Positions 1,909 through 51,588 of a stretch of 64,000 nucleotides of DNA are shown in pieces. The DNA lies in contig CANJRA010000004.1 of the NCBI GenBank assembly GCA_947476625.1, positions 62,001 through 126,000 of the forward strand, read 5' to 3'. Numbering within the stretch: position 1 is the first letter of the stretch; each line of letters begins with the position of its first letter. A program made the translations under genes and the position numbers. A model generated the notes under the pieces. It saw only the letters and a program-made list of their open reading frames with translations, had not been told where the DNA came from and did not search any database. Source of the stretch: Fidelibacterota bacterium. GTDB lineage: Bacteria; Pseudomonadota; Alphaproteobacteria; Rhodospirillales; Rhodospirillaceae.

Positions 1909-2295
1909 ATGTACGAGAAAGTTACCCGTAATATCAGTGTCTCGGTGCGCCCGTTCTTTCTTGAGGAACAGTCGGAACCCGATGAGGACCACTTTGTCTG
2001 GGCTTACCGCGTGAATATCGAGAATCGCGGCGGCGAAACCGTGCAGCTTCTGCATCGGTATTGGCGGATTACCGATAAGCTCGGCCGCCTGCAGGAGGTG
2101 AAGGGGCCCGGCGTCGTCGGCGAGCAGCCGGTCCTAAAACCGGGCGAGTCTTATGAGTATACGAGTGGCTGCCCGTTAGGCACGCCCTCGGGCATTATGG
2201 CCGGGAGCTACCAAATGACCACGACCGGCGGCGAGCACTTCGACATCGAAACTCCGATCTTTTCCCTCGATAGCCCGCACGATAGGGCGAACTAA
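1909..2295 (+). CDS. apaG: ApaG family protein
   Basis: A 128-aa single-domain ApaG protein of the usual length (about 125 aa). Visible family blocks are [23 protein letters not shown], the [21 protein letters not shown] segment and [11 protein letters not shown] near the end. ApaG has a fibronectin-III-like fold; its role is debated (linked to Co/Mg efflux and diadenosine tetraphosphate metabolism in enterics), so the biochemical function here is left open. folE starts 27 bp downstream on the same strand, so the two may be co-transcribed. Confidence 0.95.
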
Positions 2296-2322
2296 ACCGG
2301 TGGCCAGAATTAAGGACGCACT

Positions 2323-2931
2323 ATGACCTTCGTTCCTGAAAAACCCGCGACAGCCTTACCTGCCGACCGTCCTTCGCGTACCGAGGCCGAAAACGCCGTC
2401 CGCGTGCTGATCCGCTGGGCCGGCGACAATCCGGGCCGTGAAGGCCTGGAAGGCACACCCGACCGCGTTGTGCGCTCCTACGAGGAGTTCTATGCCGGGT
2501 ATCTGCAAGATCCTGTGGAAATTCTCCGCACTACCTTCGAAGAAACCGAGGGCTATGACGAGATGGTGTTACTGAAAGACATCAGTTTCGAAAGCCACTG
2601 CGAGCACCACATGGCGCCGGTGATCGGCAAGGCATTTGTCGCTTATCTGCCGGACAGGCGCGTGGTCGGCATCTCAAAGCTGGTGCGCGTGGTTGAGGCC
2701 TATGCCAAACGGCTTCAGATTCAGGAAAAAATGACGGCGCAAATCGCCAACGCCATCAACGACACATTGCATCCCAAAGGCGTAGCGGTGGTCATTGAAG
2801 GCGAACATCAGTGCATGACCACGCGCGGCGTTCACAAGCCCGGCGTTGCCATGGTGACATCGACCATGCTGGGCGCCTTCCGCGACGACGCATCAACCCG
2901 CCGCGAATTCCTCGCGATTATCGGTAAATAG
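2323..2931 (+). CDS. folE: GTP cyclohydrolase I
   Basis: A 202-aa type I GTP cyclohydrolase, full length, catalysing GTP to 7,8-dihydroneopterin triphosphate, the first step of folate synthesis. Key blocks are present: SHCEHHMAP with the zinc-binding Cys and catalytic His residues, [17 protein letters not shown], and the C-terminal ECQ-like [12 protein letters not shown] containing the second zinc Cys. The first ~20 residues are a non-conserved extension. It follows apaG closely and converges on the secreted-protein gene that ends at 2939. Confidence 0.97.
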
Positions 2932-2938
2932 CCAGCTG

Positions 2939-3565
2939 TTACTTAACGTATTGCGCCATCGCTTGGCGCAATTGCGGCTGCAGTTCGGCATCCAGCGCAT
3001 CGAATGAGGCGACAATCAGCCCCGCCCATGTCTGCTGCTTGTCGGCTTCGGTCGCGCCTTCCGTCACGGTACGGCTGGTGCCGGCTTTGCCGCTGGCCGA
3101 GGTCAGCACGCGCCCGTTGGGATCAATAAGCGCCACTTCTACTTCTAATGTCGCGACGTACTCGGCCGACTGGTCTTTGGTGAACCAGCCCTTGATGCCC
3201 TTTTTCACAGGCAGCAGGTTCTCGACGATATCGCCTTTGCGGATGGTGATACGCAGTTTGTTAACGCTGTTGCCGGTGAGCGTATAGCGCGCCGCGGCCC
3301 ATTCACGCGCGGCATCTTCAAAGCGCACTTGCGAGCGATAATTAACGTGCGGATATTCGCGCGGCGGAATGTCGGTGACTTGCAAGTCAAGCGACGTCGC
3401 GTCGACATTCATGACGCCTTTGCTGGCAAACACCAAAGTGTTGGGCGCTACGGCGGCGGTGTCTTGCGCAAACGCAGCGGGCGCAAACGCAGCGGGTACG
3501 CTCACCGCCGTCAACAACAGCGCCGCAACGCAAACTGAACGTTGTGCAATATGGGACAGCTTCAT
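2939..3565 (-). CDS. Putative secreted/periplasmic protein of unknown function
   Basis: A 208-aa protein with a clear Sec-type signal: basic start, hydrophobic run (VAALLLTAVSVPAAFA) and an AFA-Q cleavage site near residue 33. The mature part is hydrophilic, with alternating beta-like stretches (VNKLRITIRKGDIV, YVATLEVEVALID). I do not recognise a named family. Its ATG overlaps the hslO stop as ATGA, so it is the last gene of the argD-argF-hslO transcript and translationally coupled to the Hsp33 gene. A periplasmic lipoprotein-like or envelope role is possible but unproven. Confidence 0.75.
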   Translation of the reverse strand: MKLSHIAQRSVCVAALLLTAVSVPAAFAPAAFAQDTAAVAPNTLVFASKGVMNVDATSLDLQVTDIPPREYPHVNYRSQVRFEDAAREWAAARYTLTGNSVNKLRITIRKGDIVENLLPVKKGIKGWFTKDQSAEYVATLEVEVALIDPNGRVLTSASGKAGTSRTVTEGATEADKQQTWAGLIVASFDALDAELQPQLRQAMAQYVK

Positions 3566-8372: not shown

Positions 8373-9041
8373 CTAACAGCCTGTGTAAGCGACGGGCACA
8401 CAGAGCGTTTTAAGGCGCGTGTGGTGAAAGTGGTTCACCAAGCCCTGCCCGACATCCATCGCTTTGAAACGAAGCAGGTATTGGCGGCGATGCAGGGAGT
8501 GAAGTGCGCTGTAGGTTCCCATATTGCGCGACGACATCAGTGCAATGCGGAAGTCGTATGTCGGCCACCACGGCATGACGTCGAGCTGTCCGATAACCAC
8601 ATGGTCGTCCAAAACCGTGGCGAACTTAGACAGCCGTGGCGCGTGCTGAAGGTGTATGTGGCATTCCAATCGCACGACAGCGTCATAATCAGTGCCGTCA
8701 AGGCGCTCCTGGTCGGCTTTGAGCTGACCCACCATCTGCAGCATATGCTCGAGGCGTTCCAACTGTTGCGTATAGTTCTTGGTTTCTACTGAACTATTCG
8801 CAACGAACTTATCCCAATTCGTCATCTGACGACGGGGCTCGAACGCCCAACGCTTCAAGGTCATGCGAGCGTTCATCTGGCCACGGATCCAAGTACGCAG
8901 CTGATTTTCGCTCGTCTCAGGTGGCGTCCAGAGCGCGGCAAAAATGTCGACCTGCTCTTCCGGCAAGATCATGGCGCCGGCCGCGGCAATAATATTGCTC
9001 GCGGGCCTGAAATCCCCCGAAACACACAAGGCTACGCGCAT
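8373..9041 (-). CDS. Paralogue of the 7678-8364 product, unknown function
   Basis: A 222-aa protein that opens MRVALCVSGDFRPAS and carries YDAVVRLECHIHLQHAP, aligning with ISGQPR and YDCAIRARVD of the next gene, so the two probably arose by duplication. Its start overlaps the stop of a short minus-strand open frame ending REAFKQMIEHSQCA, which looks like the surviving 3' end of a lost upstream gene. A glycan-related role is plausible given the TPR-glycosyltransferase at 9703-11439, but there is no catalytic motif that I can claim. Confidence 0.55.
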   Translation of the reverse strand: MRVALCVSGDFRPASNIIAAAGAMILPEEQVDIFAALWTPPETSENQLRTWIRGQMNARMTLKRWAFEPRRQMTNWDKFVANSSVETKNYTQQLERLEHMLQMVGQLKADQERLDGTDYDAVVRLECHIHLQHAPRLSKFATVLDDHVVIGQLDVMPWWPTYDFRIALMSSRNMGTYSALHSLHRRQYLLRFKAMDVGQGLVNHFHHTRLKTLCVPVAYTGC

Positions 9042-9100
9042 TGCGAATGCTCGATCATCTGCTTAAAGGCCTCCCGCTGCCTTGATGGTCCGCTGTATAG

Positions 9101-9691
9101 CATTGTGCGATTGCCGCGACGACCGTCAAATTCGGCGGCCTGGATATCCTCATCAACAATGTCGGCGGCATCGCCAAATTTGGCCCGTTTACCGAACTCA
9201 ACGAGCAGGATTGGTATCAGGTGTTCGATATCAACGTCATGTCGGTTGTGCACGCGGTACGGCACGCGTTATCGTGGCTTAAGAAATCTAAAAGCCCATG
9301 CATCGTCGACATTTCCTCGATTGCGGCTGCAGAACCAGGTCAGATCAACCCCCACCACAACTCCGCCAAAACCGCCGTGATCAATCTGACAAAGCATCTG
9401 TCGGATGCTTTTGCGCCGGACAAAATCCTGGTGAATGTCATATGCCCCGGCCAAGTCGCGAATGAATCGCGAGATCAGCTTGCCGAGGACATGGCGCAGG
9501 CCGAGGGCCTGTCGGTTGCTGCCGCAATTGAAAAAATCGATTCGCAGGGGGCAGCGCAAATTTCATTGAAGAGACTGGGCACACCAGCCGATATCGGCGA
9601 GTTCGTGGCGTTCCTAGCGTTAGACCGCGCGTCGTGGATTACAGGATCATGTTTTCATCTCAACGGCGGCAAGGTTCGCTCGCCATTCTGA
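9101..9691 (+). pseudogene. Short-chain dehydrogenase/reductase, 5'-truncated
   Basis: The frame contains an SDR core from roughly residue 75 of a normal ~260-aa protein onward: GGLDILINNVGG, VVDISS-type IVDISSIAA, the catalytic Tyr region represented as HHNSAKTAV (the expected YxxxK Tyr is Asn here: NSAK), LVNVICPGQV, and a normal C-terminus (ITGSCFHLNGG). The N-terminal NAD(P)-binding glycine motif is absent. A TAG at 9098-9100 closes the frame immediately upstream, and no ATG precedes the homology. With the cofactor motif gone and the catalytic tyrosine replaced, the gene is very likely dead. Confidence 0.8.
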
Positions 9692-44435: not shown

Positions 44436-44459
44436 CGGCGGCCCTTTGCAAGGCCGCCG
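44436..44459 (+). repeat. Hairpin downstream of cysE
   Basis: CGGCGGCC and GGCCGCCG form a perfect 8-bp stem around an 8-base loop. On the plus strand no T-tract follows; on the minus strand it would be followed by GTTTAATTT. It may limit transcription between cysE and the kef remnant in either direction. Confidence 0.35.
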
Positions 44460-44489
44460 CTCGCGTTCCATATTGACGCCTTGCTCAAC

Positions 44490-44527
44490 GGGGACGGAGG
44501 AGCGGGCACAGCCCCTCGCCTTCCGCC
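44490..44527 (+). other. Imperfect stem-loop leader before the kef remnant
   Basis: A purine-rich arm (GGGACGGAGGAGCGGGC) faces a pyrimidine-rich arm (GCCCCTCGCCTTCCGCC) around the loop ACA, with several bulges. The AGGAGA ribosome site and the ATG at 44543 follow directly. It may be a structured leader; no known riboswitch class is recognised. Confidence 0.3.
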
Positions 44528-44542
44528 AGGAGACCCTCCCTC

Positions 44543-44990
44543 ATGGAAATGATCACGCAAGCGGCCATCTTTTTTACTGCCGCCGTCATTGTCGTTCCGA
44601 TTTTCCGCAAGCTTGGTCTTGGCGCGGTGCTGGGTTAACTCGCCGCCGGCGCGCTGATCGGACCCTTTGGTCTTTCACTGATCAACGACGTTGAAGCCAT
44701 CATGCACTTCGCCGAATTCAGCGTTGTCCTGCTGTTGTTCATTATCGGTTTGGAATTGCAGCCGGCGCGGCTATGGACGTTCCGCAGCGCCGTCTTTGGC
44801 CTCGGCGGCGCTCAAGTGGTTGTTGGCGGACACTTCCTTTTGCGACCGGTCTTGCATGCCGTCGCCACAACGCGCACGCCGGAGCTTTTTACAGCCACAG
44901 CACTGCTGATTGTCTGCGGGACCGCGCTTTTGATGAACTCCATCGGCATTTCCATGGCGCTCGGCGCGTTTCTGGCCGGCATGCTTGCTT
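44543..44990 (+). pseudogene. Kef-type cation:proton antiporter remnant
   Basis: The ATG at 44543 opens a KefB-like frame (VVPIFRKLGLGAVLG) that hits TAA at 44636-44638 exactly where the family has a Tyr ([11 protein letters not shown]). The same frame continues [27 protein letters not shown] and FGLGGAQV, then jumps to [22 protein letters not shown], losing ~100+ residues of internal helices, and runs [21 protein letters not shown] before the homology ends near 44990 at the junction with tamA. Everything after, including the TrkA-N domain, is gone. Three separate lesions make it non-functional. Confidence 0.88.
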
Positions 44991-46105
44991 TCAATCGCGG
45001 TTTTCAGCGTCTGATTTCTGCGCAGGAAATTCGGCTTGGACAGAACCGCTTTGGCGGTTTGATCTAATTGTGTTGCTTCCAACGAAAGCTCCAGCTGCTC
45101 GCCGGAGCCGAAGAAATTGCGGTGATTCCAGCTCGCCGTTCCGCCGAAACCTTTATCGCGCGCATAGCTGCCGCCCAGACTTATGGTGCGGGGCGCGCTT
45201 TCGGTGACGACGACGTTGACATCCAGCGGTCCGCCGCTCGCCATGTCTTTCGCACCAACGGGCACGACTTTCACCGAGGCGAACAATGTCAGGTCCACCA
45301 GCGATTTGCGGAGCTCCTCCAGCAAGCTCATGTCAAAGGTCGCACCCGCCTTCCAGGGCACGGACCTTGCCATAAAACGCTCTTTCACGCGCTCGAGCCC
45401 CAGAAAATGCGTCTCTCCGAAAACCGCGGCAGGCCCGAGTGTCACCGGCAGGGTGACGGAAATCGTATGTGCGGCGTGGTCGATTTCGACAAGACGGTCG
45501 CCGCGCGTTGTAAATGGAAACCCACGATTGCGAAAAATGGACAGCGCTTCGTCTTCTGCGGCAATGACATCCGGCGCACGCGCGACGCGCCCGGTGATTT
45601 TATTGAGCGGGCGGCGCGCTGCCGCTTCGGCGGCATTGTGCGATGTGCTGGAGGTTTCCAGTGCTTCTATTTCCAACGCAATCCCTGCGACGCGAAAACG
45701 CGCGCCGGGCTCAATGGTCATCCGTACCGTGACGTCACCGCTGCCGTCTCCGTCGACGGCCGCCATGACTTTCGCGTCGTAATACCCTTCAGATTCTAAA
45801 ACCGCGCGGAAGCGCCCTTCGTCGCCCACAGCGCGGCGGCCCAAAGCGGCGAGTGACGGCGGAAGACGGTCCTTCAACAACAGAAGCTGAGAGGACTCTT
45901 TTAAAAGATCGTCCGCAGCTTTGGGCGCACCGATAATGTCCACGCGGTACTTCACGCCGCCCGCGAAAGGTTCATACTGGGCTCCAACGCTTGATTGGGC
46001 GGCAAACAACCAGAACACGAGACAAATGGCGCGCGCTGCAACCAAGCGCCCGCGCTTCAAGTAGCCGCGCAGAACAACTGGCGCTGTCAGATTAAAATTC
46101 ATCAT
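44985..46105 (-). pseudogene. TamA/BamA-family outer-membrane assembly protein, 3'-truncated
   Basis: From the Met at 46105 there is a signal-like segment (ICLVFWLFAAQSSVGA), then three POTRA-type modules (YRVDIIGAPKAADDLLKES, GARFRVAGIALEIEALE, TLGPAAVFGETHFLGLERV) and the first barrel strands (PRTISLGGSYARDKGFGG, NHRNFFGSGEQLELSLEAT). TamA normally has a 16-strand barrel; here homology stops around 44990 and the frame runs on through antisense kef sequence, so most of the barrel is missing. It starts 11 bp after the AapJ-like gene, so it was the fourth gene of that operon. Confidence 0.8.
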
Positions 46106-46116
46106 ACCGGAAAGGC

Positions 46117-47079
46117 TTAGCGCACAGGCGGAGCGAACATCAACCCGCCATCGCGCCACAGCTTGTTTAAGCCGCGATCTAGTTTGATGGGACTGCTCTG
46201 CCCTAGATTGCGCTCAAACATCTCGCCGTAATTCCCGACCGCCGCAATCACAGCCTCGATCCACCGCGCATCGAGACCCAGAACGGCACCATGACTATCG
46301 CCAAATTCAGCGGCGTTACGCGACGTGACATTGCGTTCTTCGGCTTCAATCAAGGCAATCACTGTCCAACGCACGACTTCATAAAAGCGGTCGTCACCTT
46401 GCCGCACTAACGGTGCCAGCGGCTCCTTCGAAATTATGTCGGGCAGGATCGCAAAACGCGCGAAACCGTCCTTGAAACCTGCGCGTGCCGCCGCGAGCCA
46501 AGACACGTCCGCCGAAAAAGCCGTGCAACGCCCATCATGCAACGCTTTCTCCGCATCGGCATCGGTTGCAACGATGACTGTCCTGACCGCGCCCCTAAAA
46601 TGATCGATCAACGTTTTGGCGTGCGGACCGGCATTCACGCATATTTTTTCGCCCATAAGCTGTGCCGCCGACATCGCGCCGTCGCGCGGCAAAAGGAACC
46701 CCTGCCCGTCGTAAAACGTGATTGGACCGAACATCATGCCATGCGTCGTCGCTCGGCTGAGCGACCACGTCAGGCGCCGCGTCACCATGTCGATGTCGTC
46801 ATTGTCGCTAAGCTGACGGACATTCTCGGCGGCCTTGAAGACAACCTTGGCATCGGCCCCGAGAATGGCCACAGCCACAGCGCGGCACACGTCGGCATCG
46901 AAGCCGGCATTATTTTGGTCTTGCTTGACGGAGAATCCCGCAACGTCAGGCCCCAGCCCGCAGCCGAAATATCCGCGCGCACGGATATTTTCGATCCGCC
47001 CGGCGTTCGCTGGCACGGATACCCCAAGCAGGCCAAAGCATAGCAGCAAAATAAAAGTTTTAATAACCGCGTTTGACAT
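46117..47079 (-). CDS. AapJ-like amino-acid-binding periplasmic protein
   Basis: A 320-aa solute-binding protein family 3 member with a signal peptide (IKTFILLLCFGLLGVSVPANA, cleavage near 26). AapJ-type signatures are GYFGCGLGPDVAGFS, NAGFDADVCRAVAVAILG, TRRLTWSLSRATTHGMMFG, YYDGQGFLL-like FYDGQGFLLPRDG, ILPDIISKEPLAPLVRQGDDRF, AVGNYGEMFERNLG and LNKLWRDGGLMFAPPVR. AapJ binds a broad range of L-amino acids for the AapQMP transporter, but no permease or ATPase gene is here. It overlaps the dehydrogenase gene by 20 bp and is followed by the tamA remnant. Confidence 0.9.
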   Translation of the reverse strand: MSNAVIKTFILLLCFGLLGVSVPANAGRIENIRARGYFGCGLGPDVAGFSVKQDQNNAGFDADVCRAVAVAILGADAKVVFKAAENVRQLSDNDDIDMVTRRLTWSLSRATTHGMMFGPITFYDGQGFLLPRDGAMSAAQLMGEKICVNAGPHAKTLIDHFRGAVRTVIVATDADAEKALHDGRCTAFSADVSWLAAARAGFKDGFARFAILPDIISKEPLAPLVRQGDDRFYEVVRWTVIALIEAEERNVTSRNAAEFGDSHGAVLGLDARWIEAVIAAVGNYGEMFERNLGQSSPIKLDRGLNKLWRDGGLMFAPPVR

Positions 47080-48142
47080 CGACTACCGACAGCATCTTAT
47101 CGCCCGCCACATAACGCCGCAGATTTTCCCGCATGACGCTCCACATACGTTCAGTCTTCAGGTCCGATTGATCAGCGGCATGCGGCGTAATCAGTACATT
47201 GTGCGCACTCCATAAGGGGTGGCTTTTGGGCAAAGGCTCGGGATCGACCACATCAAGCCCCGCACCCGCAATGGTACGCTTATTCAATGCGGCAACCAGG
47301 TCGTCTGTGACGACGCTTTTGCCCCGCCCGAGATTGAAGAAAAACGCCGTCGATTTCATACGGGCGAACATTGCAGCATTGAACAATCCCGTCGTTTCTG
47401 GCGTCAACGGCGTGACATTCACGACAAAATCCGCCTGGGCGATCAATTCCGGCAAATCCCCGGGTGCGCCAATGGGCGCGACAAAATCAGGCCCGCCGCG
47501 ACCGCTGTTTCGCGTGGCGATAATGTTCATATCAAAAGCATGCGCGCGTTTGGCAATCTCCGTGCCGATGCCGCCAAGGCCGACAATCAGCACGGTCTTT
47601 CCCGCGAGATCGCCTGGCTTTGACGGCTTCCATTCCTGCTTATGCTGCGCATCGACCGCATCTGGAATGTTCCGGCTCAGCGCCAACATCATGGCCAGCG
47701 CATGCTCGGCGACGTTCGAGCCGTTCAGACGTTGCATATTGGTCAGGAGGACAGCACCACTCTGAACGCGCGGAATCGGAATGCAGTCCTCGACACCGGC
47801 TCCTTGCGTTTGAACCCACCGCAGCTTTGGGCCCGCCGCGACCACGTCAGCCCGGCATGTGCCGATCAACGCATCGGCATCGGCGAGCGCGGCTTTAAAT
47901 TCGGCGGGATTTCGCGCACCAACAACCGTGGTGCCTTTTGCTGCTTCTTGAAACCACGCGAGCCGCGCGGCGCTATCGACCAGAACAACAATCTTTTGCG
48001 GCTTTTTCCAGTTGGGCATGTCGCGTACCGGCACCGCGCTTTCGCGCAGCCCGAGCGCAGCGGTCACCGCGGCGTCGCTTTCGGCCATAGCGTGACCGGC
48101 GCTTAACAGAACTGCGCTCAAAACCAGACAGCGGGCAAACAT
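47060..48142 (-). CDS. Exported D-isomer-specific 2-hydroxyacid dehydrogenase
   Basis: A 360-aa protein from the ATG at 48142. It starts with a Sec-type signal (CLVLSAVLLSAGHAMA, cleavage after residue 20), unusual for this NAD(P)-dependent family. The cofactor motif GLGGIG is at 188-193, with Arg211 after the second strand, suggesting NADP(H). The catalytic triad is intact: Arg273 (NLGRG), Glu302 (DPEPLP) and His321 (TPHAA). The family reduces 2-oxoacids to D-2-hydroxyacids. It sits 2 bp after the Tat-aminotransferase gene, whose product would be a 2-oxoacid. Confidence 0.88.
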   Translation of the reverse strand: MFARCLVLSAVLLSAGHAMAESDAAVTAALGLRESAVPVRDMPNWKKPQKIVVLVDSAARLAWFQEAAKGTTVVGARNPAEFKAALADADALIGTCRADVVAAGPKLRWVQTQGAGVEDCIPIPRVQSGAVLLTNMQRLNGSNVAEHALAMMLALSRNIPDAVDAQHKQEWKPSKPGDLAGKTVLIVGLGGIGTEIAKRAHAFDMNIIATRNSGRGGPDFVAPIGAPGDLPELIAQADFVVNVTPLTPETTGLFNAAMFARMKSTAFFFNLGRGKSVVTDDLVAALNKRTIAGAGLDVVDPEPLPKSHPLWSAHNVLITPHAADQSDLKTERMWSVMRENLRRYVAGDKMLSVVDVKRGY

Positions 48143-48144
48143 CG

Positions 48145-49215
48145 TCACGTAAAAACCGTGCGCATGACGTCGGCGTAACGTTTCATATCTTCCATACGCC
48201 CCATACTGACACGCGCCCACTGCGCATAAGGCTCTGTCACGGGACTGATCAGTACGTTGCGCGTGCGCATCAGTTCGACAAATCCAGCGCCGCTACGGCC
48301 GGTATCGAACATCAAGAAACTGGCTTGCGTCGGCGCGGTAGGCACACGCAAGTCTTTGAACATGCGCTGTGTGAAGTCTAAACAGTCGCGCGTCGCTTGA
48401 CGGCTTTGCGCGAGAAAAGCTTCGTCGTCATAACTCACGCGCGCCGCCGCAAGCCCGGCGCGGTTGGGAAAAGACATCCGCATGGACTCAAACGAACGAA
48501 TAATGTCAGCACGTGCCATGCCGTAACCGATGCGCAAGCCCGCTAGCCCGTGAATTTTCGAGAACGAACGCGTGATGATGAGATTTTGCCCTGCCTTCAC
48601 CTGATCAATAACCGTCACGCGCGCGGGGTCGTCGGCATAGTCGATATAAGCCTCGTCTACCACCGTCAACGCCCGCTTCGACACCGCTGCGATAAATCGC
48701 CGCAGGTCATCGGTGTTCACGAGTGAGCCGGTCGGATTATCGGGATTGCAGACGTACACCAAGCCAGTCTGCGTATTCACACGCGCCTGCATGGCCGCGA
48801 GGTCGTGGCGAAAGTCCTTGTCCAAATCGACCCACACAATGTTCGCGCCGCGACGGCTGGCGTACTGCGCCAGCATCGGGAACGTTGGGCGCGCCACAAC
48901 GACGTCGCGTTCTTTATCGCTGTGAATAAGCGCGGCTAGTTTCAGCAATTCGCCCGAGCCCTCGGTGACGATGACGTTTTCGGGCTTCAACCCTTCGTGC
49001 GCAGCAATCATTTTGCGCAGCGCCGCTAAATCTTCGTAAGGATATTGCCAGCCTTTTTCGAGCGCCGCGGCGGCGGCTTGCTTGGCGCGTTCCGAAGGGC
49101 CAAAAGGATTTTCATTGTATAGCAGACGTAACGGCGCCGCCTCGGCCGCGCTTGCGCTGGCCACGAGAAAGGCACCCGAGACTTGCAAAACACCGCGACG
49201 CGTGAAGTCCGTCAT
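48145..49215 (-). CDS. Tat-exported PLP aminotransferase, HisC-like
   Basis: A 356-aa fold-type I aminotransferase preceded by a twin-arginine signal: TRRGVLQ (Arg6-Arg7), then VSGAFLVASASAAEA. Active-site blocks are VTEGSGELLKLAALI, CNPDNPTG, VVDEAYIDY, and the PLP-lysine segment ITRSFSKIHGLAGLRIGYG (Lys220). HisC relatives act on histidinol phosphate or aromatic amino acids. Tat export is consistent with secretion after PLP is bound. Being first in an operon with an exported dehydrogenase and an amino-acid-binding protein, it probably deaminates amino acids outside the cytoplasm rather than working in histidine synthesis. Confidence 0.88.
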   Translation of the reverse strand: MTDFTRRGVLQVSGAFLVASASAAEAAPLRLLYNENPFGPSERAKQAAAAALEKGWQYPYEDLAALRKMIAAHEGLKPENVIVTEGSGELLKLAALIHSDKERDVVVARPTFPMLAQYASRRGANIVWVDLDKDFRHDLAAMQARVNTQTGLVYVCNPDNPTGSLVNTDDLRRFIAAVSKRALTVVDEAYIDYADDPARVTVIDQVKAGQNLIITRSFSKIHGLAGLRIGYGMARADIIRSFESMRMSFPNRAGLAAARVSYDDEAFLAQSRQATRDCLDFTQRMFKDLRVPTAPTQASFLMFDTGRSGAGFVELMRTRNVLISPVTEPYAQWARVSMGRMEDMKRYADVMRTVFT

Positions 49216-49303: not shown

Positions 49304-51588
49304 CTAAGAATACGTCGGCATAATGGGTAGGGCAATCTTGCGGGAAATGGCGGTTTTACTGATCATCCGCAGTTCGTTATTCGTCACGCGCAGCCGCGCC
49401 GCGATCTCGCGGGCTATATTAGCGACCAATTTGGCCGCTAACGTTGGATTTACACCCAGAACATTATCGAAATTCGCTTTGGTTACTTCGTAGATAACAA
49501 TCTCCGTATCGGCGATGGCGTCGGCTGAGCGGCGCTCGCCCTCCAACATCGCCATTTCGCCGAAGATCACCCCGGGAATGAGATTGGCGAGTTGTATAGG
49601 CGCACGACGACCGCTGACCAAACGAATGGTAACCGTGCCCTTGGCCAGCATAAAGAACGAATCACCCTGGTCGCCTTCGCGGAACAGCACGGTACCCGCG
49701 GGCAGCTCTTCGCCCCGCGTCAGAGTAGCGAGTTGCGCCTGCTCTTCCGCCGCCAGGCCCGCCGCAAGGCTGAAGTTATGAAGCGCCACTTCCGTATTGA
49801 TGGTCGAAACGATACCGGCCGCTTCCAGCAGCCTGTCTTCTGCCTATTCCAGCGCAGCATCGGTATCGGCGAATAACCGGCAGACATCGAAAATTCTCTC
49901 GCCGGCGATAACCCCGAGAAATTCTCCGTTCATGTCTTCGCGAGTCATGTGGGCGATGGCCGCGATCTTGCCTCCCGCAATCATGCGCTGAAATAGCTGC
50001 AGCAAAATCCGCACGCCAGTCGCATCCATATCCGCAAGGCGACCGCAGTCGAGAATCACGACCCGCGCCCGCACCGACAGACGCTCGACCTCGCTAAACA
50101 GCGCGTCGGCTGTACCGAAGAATAGCGGGCCATCGAGTTCAACGACGACGACTTCATATCCGCGCGCCGCAAGGTATTCGGCCTCGCTGCGTTCACGCAC
50201 TTTCAGCGACCGGCGCGGCGCGCCGCGCCGTCATAAGACCGGCGCACGATAGGCTTGCTCATGTCGCGCACGAACATCACCATCGCAATCATAATGCCCG
50301 CGATCACCGCAGTGATCAGGTTCACGATCACCGTGACCGCGCCCACGGCGATAACAATGACGAGATTGGCGGCAATCGCACGGCGGAATGGTCCTGCCAG
50401 ACGCAGACGCGACAGCAATTCGCGGCTCCAACTATCCATGATGCCGAGCGCTACGACCGTTAGCACAGCGGCAAGTACAGAACGCGGCAAATAACCCAGC
50501 CACGGCCCGGCAACGATTGTACCGACAAGAACAAAGAGCGCGCTGATGACCGCGCTGCGGCGTGTTTGCGCGCCGGCCTTCAACGCGGCGGCACTGCGGC
50601 CGACCGCGCCGGAACTGGCAAGCCCGCCCACCGCCGCCGAAGCCATGTTGGACAATCCCTGCGCCAGCAGCTCACGATCAATATTGTGCCGGCCAGCCGT
50701 GAGACTATCGACGACCGCCGCACCCATCAGCGAGTCAATCGCCGCGATAACCGCCAAGATAGCAACGTGGGGCATCAGCGCCGCAATGCGATCGATAATC
50801 CAGGTATCACTCGCGACGTCCCAGATTTCGAACAAAGCAAAGGACGGTATCGCCGATGGAACCGCGCCGATGGTCGGGCCCAGCAGTGCCGCGCCGACAT
50901 AAGGCCGCAACGCATAATGCAACGCCAATCCCGCCAGCAGACCGATCAGCAACGACGGCGCACGGCGCGTGATTTTAGGTGCGATCGTGATAACCAACAT
51001 CGTCACGCCGGCGACGATAATGCCCCACGGACTGGCCTCGGCACGAATGTCGCTCCAGTCGGCCCAGGCGAAATGCTCTGGCAGTCCCAAGAGCCCGCGC
51101 ATCTGACTCAGCAGCAGCAAAATCGCGACGCCGTTCATGAACCCTTCGATAACGGGATAAGGAATGAATTTAATCACGCGTCCCAAGCGTGCGATGCCGA
51201 AGATGCCTTGCAGCAAGCCGGCAAGAAACACACCGAATAATGCCAGCGCTACTGCCGTCGCAGGACCGCCGTGCTGATCCAAGTCAGGTGCTTGCGCGGC
51301 CGTTGCCACCATCGAAGCCATGATCACCGCCACGGATGCACGCGGACCGGAAATCATGCGCGGTGTACCGCCGAGCAGCGCCGCGACTAAACCTGCGGCA
51401 ACCGCGCCGTACAGGCCCGCGATCACGCCCATACCGGCGAAGGCCGTGCCGAGGGCGGCAAAGGTCATCAATCCTAAAGGAACGGATTCCGAAATCGTGA
51501 TAACCGCGGCTACCAGCGCGCCCATGAGGTCGCCGCGCAGAATCGCCGCGTCACCGCTCCGCGCCATAGCGGGCATGTCCGTAGGCAA
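49304..51588 (-). pseudogene. SulP anion transporter with STAS and cyclic-nucleotide-binding domains, disrupted
   Basis: From 51588 the first 461 codons encode a SulP permease (ISESVPLGLMTFAALG, GTPRMISGPRASVAVIMASM, ten or more helices). The frame ends at a TGA (50205-50203) inside a GC-rich palindromic stretch; a shifted frame continues without a gap as LKVRERSEAEYLAARGYEVV, a STAS domain with CGRLADMDATGVRIL. After ALE a TAG (49846-49844) stands where relatives have Trp (ALEWAEDRLL), and the same frame continues through a cNMP-binding domain (GTVLFREGDQGDSFFML) to 49304. Summed length (~760 codons) equals an intact SulP-STAS-cNMP protein. One frameshift plus one nonsense codon. Confidence 0.85.

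Follow-up and report, generated by a model that had tools for sequence, protein, structure and literature searches.

How does an NADP-type enzyme that is predicted to leave the cytoplasm by Sec meet its cofactor? Free NAD(P)(H) is generally regarded as restricted to the cytoplasm, and GFOR, the exported NADP enzyme already known, uses the Tat route, in contrast to the Sec-type dehydrogenases described here. The question arises at a three-gene locus within the window, by which we mean the whole stretch of 64,000 nucleotides analysed. A sequence-only reading had found there an aminotransferase (AT), a D-2-hydroxyacid dehydrogenase (DH) and a binding protein (SBP), all with export signals, and had proposed that together they convert amino acids to 2-oxoacids and then perhaps D-2-hydroxyacids outside the cytoplasm. 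Its export signals and its puzzle over NADP stand; the three-gene route as a conserved pathway finds no support. That reading had no place for the wide spread of the exported DH family, for a cysteine pair or for an association with ATP/ADP-translocase-related transporters (NTT).

The locus matters because DH belongs to a monophyletic and widespread family of Sec-type NADP enzymes, with a cysteine pair confined to the exported clade and a genomic tie to relatives of nucleotide translocases. The family raises two testable questions: does the periplasm contain a pool of pyridine nucleotides, and what role do NTTs play in free-living bacteria? Open-access literature searches brought up no report of an exported D-2-hydroxyacid dehydrogenase and none on periplasmic NADP supply.

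Gene arrangement and export signals

The source genome (G000) is an assembly of 2.6 Mb in 50 contigs, with a completeness of 100% and a contamination of 0.48% (the tool's figures). Open reading frames and coordinates of all three genes, which occupy window positions 46117-49215 on the minus strand, were confirmed:

48145..49215, minus strand: AT, predicted exported HisC-family PLP aminotransferase (PF00155; PLP Lys220; twin-arginine signal MTDFTRRGVLQVSGAFLVASASAAEA)
47060..48142, minus strand: DH, predicted exported NADP-type D-2-hydroxyacid dehydrogenase (PF02826 and PF00389; GLGGIG, Arg211, Arg273/Glu302/His321)
48083..48142, minus strand: DH Sec-type signal peptide as read from the sequence, MFARCLVLSAVLLSAGHAMA followed by ESD (likely cleavage after AMA, residue 20)
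46117..47079, minus strand: SBP, AapJ-like amino-acid binding protein (PF00497; signal MSNAVIKTFILLLCFGLLGVSVPANA followed by GR)

A gap of 2 bp separates the AT stop from the DH start (an ATG, giving MFARCLVL...) and DH overlaps SBP by 20 bp, in agreement with the close spacing, 2 bp or overlap, noted earlier. The residue numbers quoted then are also correct: Lys220 in AT and, in DH, GLGGIG from 188, Arg211, Arg273, Glu302 and His321. Export calls were made by eye, by our own hydropathy/AXA rule, which is noisy, and by conservation among relatives.

The AT N-terminus contains TRRGVLQ and a hydrophobic stretch, as in Tat signals. AT has matches in 13 other genomes, and at all nine orthologue loci examined (46-56% identity) a twin-arginine motif (SRR, TRR or DRR) with a hydrophobic stretch was seen by eye. 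Its best NCBIfam matches all fall below cut-off: 261.5 against 444 bits for PRK09105, 241.7 against 276.55 for the HisC histidinol-phosphate transaminase profile TIGR01141, and 240 against 500 for the PtaA profile NF051461. G000 has a second HisC-like gene (366 aa), beside TyrA- and MetX-like genes (names by reading), so that AT is not the sole candidate for the histidine pathway. In a review (PMC6206403) PtaA is described as a PLP transaminase of the periplasm that Tat exports in the folded state and that is also present in species making no pyoverdine. Like PtaA of pseudomonads, AT is a HisC-like PLP transaminase with a Tat signal, a likeness seen in sequence only (TRRGVLQ, Lys220); unlike PtaA, it is partnered by DH and SBP, and it scores far below the PtaA cut-off.

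SBP is just above the cut-off of PF00497 (SBP_bac_3; 26.8 against 26.4 bits) and matches the amino-acid binding protein 4z9n along its full length (8.8e-62), a type known by the name AapJ. Seven of its nine closest orthologues were examined by eye at their loci (47-53% identity), and all seven begin with a signal-like stretch, which in one is lipoprotein-like. The sequence-only remark that SBP lacks transporter genes extends to the whole genome for the expected permease type: TIGR01726 finds no match in G000 (0/1), with matches in 11 of 14 control genomes, so that the cognate His/Glu/Gln/Arg-type permease of an AapJ importer is missing, a difference from AapJ-type binding proteins; other ABC permeases do exist there (12 PF00528 matches). 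SBP is thus an orphan binding protein and, as the genome has no matching permease, is unlikely to serve a classical ABC importer.

A widespread family of exported dehydrogenases

Both domains (PF02826/PF00389) and the Arg, Glu and His residues place DH among the D-2-hydroxyacid dehydrogenases. Its AF2 model (pLDDT 87) is closest, by Foldseek E-value, to Haloferax D2-HDH (5mh5/5mh6), and it shares fold, Rossmann motif and Arg/Glu/His with this enzyme and with phenylpyruvate reductase (8hpg). It differs from these D-isomer-specific 2-hydroxyacid dehydrogenases in having a signal peptide, an invariant cysteine pair and a clade of its own. One table row of a paper on Asaia (PMC12502724) lists a D-2-hydroxyacid dehydrogenase without a signal peptide.

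A whole-protein search found close DH orthologues in 14 of 61 genomes (G000 included), at 50-64% identity; among 297 genomes of the order, 20 had a match at E <= 1e-50; the 18 that belong to the family have at least 48% identity and the other two 35-39%. A signal-like start and two invariant cysteines are present in all 20 rows aligned (the window DH and 19 loci; the L062 DH was missed there). A wide scan, in which 84,980 species were each represented by a single genome, kept the best 80 of at least 382 relatives. These best 80 have 46-64% identity and belong to Alpha- and Gammaproteobacteria, with Povalibacter uvarum DSM 26723, Steroidobacter gossypii and Methylohalomonas lacus among the named strains; some lie on contigs labelled Nitrospirales, Gemmatimonadota or Acidobacteria, which may be mis-binned. 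The combined alignment has 99 rows, 86 of them distinct (the 20 rows plus the best 80 of at least 382, minus L118, which is cut by a contig end).

A signal-like N-terminus (hydrophobic stretch and AXA-like site) was found in 85 of the 86 distinct sequences, the best 80 of at least 382 loci included, when the best start codon was chosen, a choice that favours signals: with a single start the count is 76/86, and one of 19 other homologues (other 2-hydroxyacid dehydrogenases from the order) passes from an internal Met. The sole exception, L116, scores just under our own signal limit. Homologues lacking signal peptides had been named in advance as grounds for abandoning export; the homologues keep their signals, in these 85 of 86 DH sequences as at the nine AT loci. 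It may be argued that such N-termini do not export and that AT and DH never leave the cytoplasm or its inner face, given that the cytosol is the usual place of Rossmann and PLP enzymes and that our signal rule is home-made and sequence-based. This we consider very improbable: the signals persist down to about 46% identity, the Tat motifs are conserved, and the cysteine pair marks the exported clade only. That AT and DH are built for export is well supported.

Codons of three residues kept throughout the family:

47855..47857, minus strand: Cys96, first of the invariant cysteine pair (99/99 exported-family rows, 0/19 other homologues)
47783..47785, minus strand: Cys120, second of the pair, adjoining the GV(E/D) loop (99/99 exported-family rows, 0/19 other homologues)
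47510..47512, minus strand: Arg211, NADP-type residue after beta-2 (99/99 rows, a count partly built in by the GLGG and IATR peptide patterns of the wide scan; 5/19 other homologues)

Arg211 is also present in all 20 rows of the whole-protein search, which used no peptide patterns, and the cysteine pair was part of no scan pattern. Arg273 and His321 occur in 99/99 rows, with Glu (87), Asp (11) or Thr (1) at residue 302. With Arg211 kept, the puzzle of how a Sec-exported DH obtains NADP is real. In the AF2 model both cysteines come after strand ends (strands 91-94 and 109-112). A Cys96-Cys120 disulphide probably forms beside the substrate loop. In a quick maximum-likelihood tree the family is one clade (SH-aLRT 99) against five of the 19 outgroup rows, which have long branches. 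A single clade, conserved signals and cysteines, and retained cofactor and active-site residues suggest that the family has probably been exported since its origin.

Conservation of the gene trio

A search for the same trio in relatives, which the sequence-only reading had proposed as a check, found none: the stretches fetched around 20 DH, 9 AT and 7 SBP loci hold no second trio member, and AT and DH lie on different contigs in all 10 other genomes that have both. Among these the trio is together in one genome only, which gives no support to a conserved pathway; a single route in which the three genes take an amino acid through a 2-oxoacid to a D-2-hydroxyacid rests on that genome.

The genes nevertheless tend to occur in the same genomes. 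Presence was set by hand: an SBP match below about 50% identity did not count as presence, and two draft genomes with partial AT matches were scored as positive for AT. Among the 61 genomes, DH and AT are both present in 11, DH only in 3, AT only in 3 and neither in 44 (Fisher 3e-7), and within the genus the figures are 8, 2, 1 and 8 (p 0.004); these statistics ignore phylogeny, and the positive genomes may be one subclade. For DH and SBP the 61 genomes divide into 8 with both, 6 with DH only, 2 with SBP only and 45 with neither; for AT and SBP, into 10 with both, 4 with AT only, none with SBP only and 47 with neither.

A chance rearrangement could have joined three independent exported proteins with separate roles, as the unrelated locations of their orthologues suggest. 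Directly downstream of the trio lie a TamA-like gene losing similarity and kef-like fragments, so the locus may indeed have been rearranged; TamA itself was not matched beside the orthologues at the 20 DH, 9 AT and 7 SBP loci. Against this, the tight spacing (a gap of 2 bp, an overlap of 20 bp) suggests a single transcript, the chemistry of AT, DH and SBP fits, and AT is found in 11/14 DH-positive against 3/47 DH-negative genomes, by a statistic that ignores phylogeny. We consider a chance trio somewhat unlikely.

Other than NTT, a conserved DH partner was sought and rejected, as neighbours differ by lineage. They include threonine dehydratase-like, DUF1838, phospholipase D-like, MATE-like and polyketide-like genes (names by reading; DUF1838 verified with Pfam for one protein).

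Nucleotide translocase-like carriers beside DH

An NTT-like transporter is present at 19 of the 80 DH loci (best 80 of at least 382), against 0.40 expected. A PF03219 match and an NTT fold both assign the transporter to NTT/TLC; its nearest folds are ATP/ADP translocators. It thus has the fold of AtNTT1, Chlamydia NTT1 and PamNTT4 and a distant sequence match to them, and differs from these in its linkage to exported NAD(P) enzymes and in lying far below the cut-off of TIGR00769 (NTP/NDP exchange, 387.2): two of four transporters scanned gave 33.2 and 23.1 bits and the other two no match. According to PMC5381601, NTTs are known in free-living bacteria, where their roles are not established, and the NAD transporter PamNTT4 falls into a group with uncharacterised NTTs of bacteria.

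Further exported enzymes occur at DH loci. A Tat-signalled aldo/keto reductase-like gene, assigned by our own profile and for L123 also by NCBIfam, is near in five (L083, L086, L123, L124 and L145); in L096 DH has an exported SDR-like gene beside it, in L060 DH is followed by one for an exported NAD(P)-binding-like protein, and in L057 the transporter has a Tat-signalled NmrA-like neighbour. G000 itself has two NTT-like carriers. NTT presence was rejected as a DH-specific marker, since eight of nine DH-negative genomes of the genus also have NTT.

No carrier would be needed if DH were a nicotinoprotein, holding one tightly bound NADP from leaked cofactor and recycling it between two substrates in the manner of GFOR. 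GFOR binds NADP tightly, and the NADP arginine is kept in DH. As described in PMC4628093, GFOR (Zymomonas mobilis), which is periplasmic, and AAOR (Caulobacter) are, like DH, NADP oxidoreductases with export signals. However, both belong to the Gfo/Idh/MocA family, carry Tat signals and can leave as folded proteins together with NADP, whereas DH is by Pfam a 2-hydroxyacid dehydrogenase with a Sec-like signal; RR precedes the hydrophobic stretch in only 14 of the 86 distinct DH sequences (best 80 of at least 382 loci included). A nicotinoprotein would also leave the NTT linkage unexplained, and we regard it as unlikely.

The explanation we prefer, whose chances of being right or wrong we judge evenly balanced, has AT, DH and SBP working in the periplasm. 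AT would fold with PLP in the cytoplasm, leave by Tat like PtaA, and catalyse transamination between 2-oxoacids and either amino acids or the amino-acid side groups carried by larger molecules. DH, as a member of a single widespread Sec-exported NADP-type family, would fold outside, with a probable Cys96-Cys120 disulphide, and would interconvert 2-oxoacids and D-2-hydroxyacids; that AT acts before DH is suggested by family chemistry, not data. SBP may bind the amino-acid substrate or product, outside any classical ABC importer. NADP(H) would not be carried through Sec; DH would encounter it in the periplasm, where NTT-like carriers are the most plausible means of its supply or exchange. If the DH-linked carriers do move NAD(P)(H), this would explain how a Sec-exported DH meets NADP.

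NTT copies away from DH

Forty NTT loci distant from DH, 20 taken from the order sample and 20 of 28 in DH genomes, were compared with as many random regions, drawn in equal parts (20 each) from the order and from DH genomes, a small control from only partly the same genomes. An exported NAD(P) oxidoreductase lies within two genes at 9 of the 40 NTT loci by script, or 10 with L205, whose exported MDR neighbours are missed by the final signal filter and were added by eye; the same holds for one of 40 random regions (L277, aldo/keto reductase), giving Fisher p values of 0.007 and 0.0035. The count of NAD(P) enzymes excludes FAD and GMC oxidoreductases. Four types are found beside NTT: MDR (L200, L204, L205 and L206, which are one genus, related loci not being independent), SDR (L212, L223 and L231), NmrA-like (L212 and L216) and aldo/keto reductase (L215 and L225). 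L200 is the G000 locus, where a Tat-signalled MDR lies directly upstream of one NTT copy. The Pfam tally of NTT neighbours covers 62 of 63, the masked L226 neighbour having been dropped; family tallies comprise the first 25 of 67 and of 99 families, without named members, and N-termini were read as well.

The NTT-like neighbours could be MFS carriers of something else, with a linkage that reflects genomes rich in both. Consistent with this, MFS_1 matches 15/15 members and TLC 12/15, the NTP/NDP exchange cut-off is not reached, and NTT is common in DH-negative members of the genus; the control, too, is small. Yet random regions yield 1/40 against 9 or 10/40, although signal-bearing neighbours are about equally frequent (58/160 against 63/149), the 19 DH-NTT loci among the best 80 of at least 382 compare with 0.40 expected, and the fold is nearest to NTT. 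We lean against another cargo while giving it appreciable weight.

The preferred explanation, with carriers for NAD(P)(H), can be extended, more tentatively and with the balance against it. Many free-living Gram-negatives may keep a working periplasmic NAD(P)(H) pool, which NTT-like carriers would bring across the inner membrane and on which several unrelated families of exported oxidoreductases (2-hydroxyacid dehydrogenase, aldo/keto reductase, MDR, SDR and NmrA-like) would draw, some of them Sec-exported and loaded with cofactor after export; DH, coupled to a Tat-exported AT, would be one user.

Two candidates, one from the NTT set and one from the control, were discounted as lacking genuine export: L233 has an ornithine cyclodeaminase-like neighbour, and L243 a fragment resembling shikimate dehydrogenase. 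Control region L244 has a weak exported NAD-binding match beyond the two-gene frame.

Genes flanking the three-gene cluster

Upstream of the gene for the exported HisC-family aminotransferase, on the same strand and within window 49304-51588, lie a cyclic-nucleotide-binding protein gene, identified by Pfam, and STAS-like and SulP-like genes, both read from sequence. Downstream, a TamA/BamA-like gene starts 11 bp past the AapJ-like binding protein gene (window 44446-46105). Its family match stops near residue 395, and the gene runs into opposite-strand fragments that read as kef-like (window 44446-45067). The TamA/BamA-like-to-kef-like junction (window 44446-46105) is rearranged, decayed or mis-assembled.

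Proteins with export-type signals in related loci

DUF1838-type proteins with Tat-like signals recur in the vicinity of the exported D-2-hydroxyacid dehydrogenase, according to protein clusters of the loci (L056, L060 and L061). Those of L056 are encoded at:

2096-3028, DUF1838-type gene
8659-9552, DUF1838-type gene, the only one across the three loci verified by Pfam

Dehydrogenase relatives on contigs labelled Acidobacteriota or Gemmatimonadota (L105, L107 and L116) carry additional CxxC motifs shortly after the signal peptide.

At two loci away from the dehydrogenase, L205 (524-6167; one copy confirmed by Pfam) and L206 (6268-10484), an NTT-like transporter, related to ATP/ADP translocases, is surrounded each time by three similar Tat-signalled MDR-type oxidoreductase genes. 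In Steroidobacter gossypii (L231:2401-4695), such a transporter gene is adjoined by a pair of SDR-like genes whose N-termini resemble those of signal-bearing proteins or lipoproteins.
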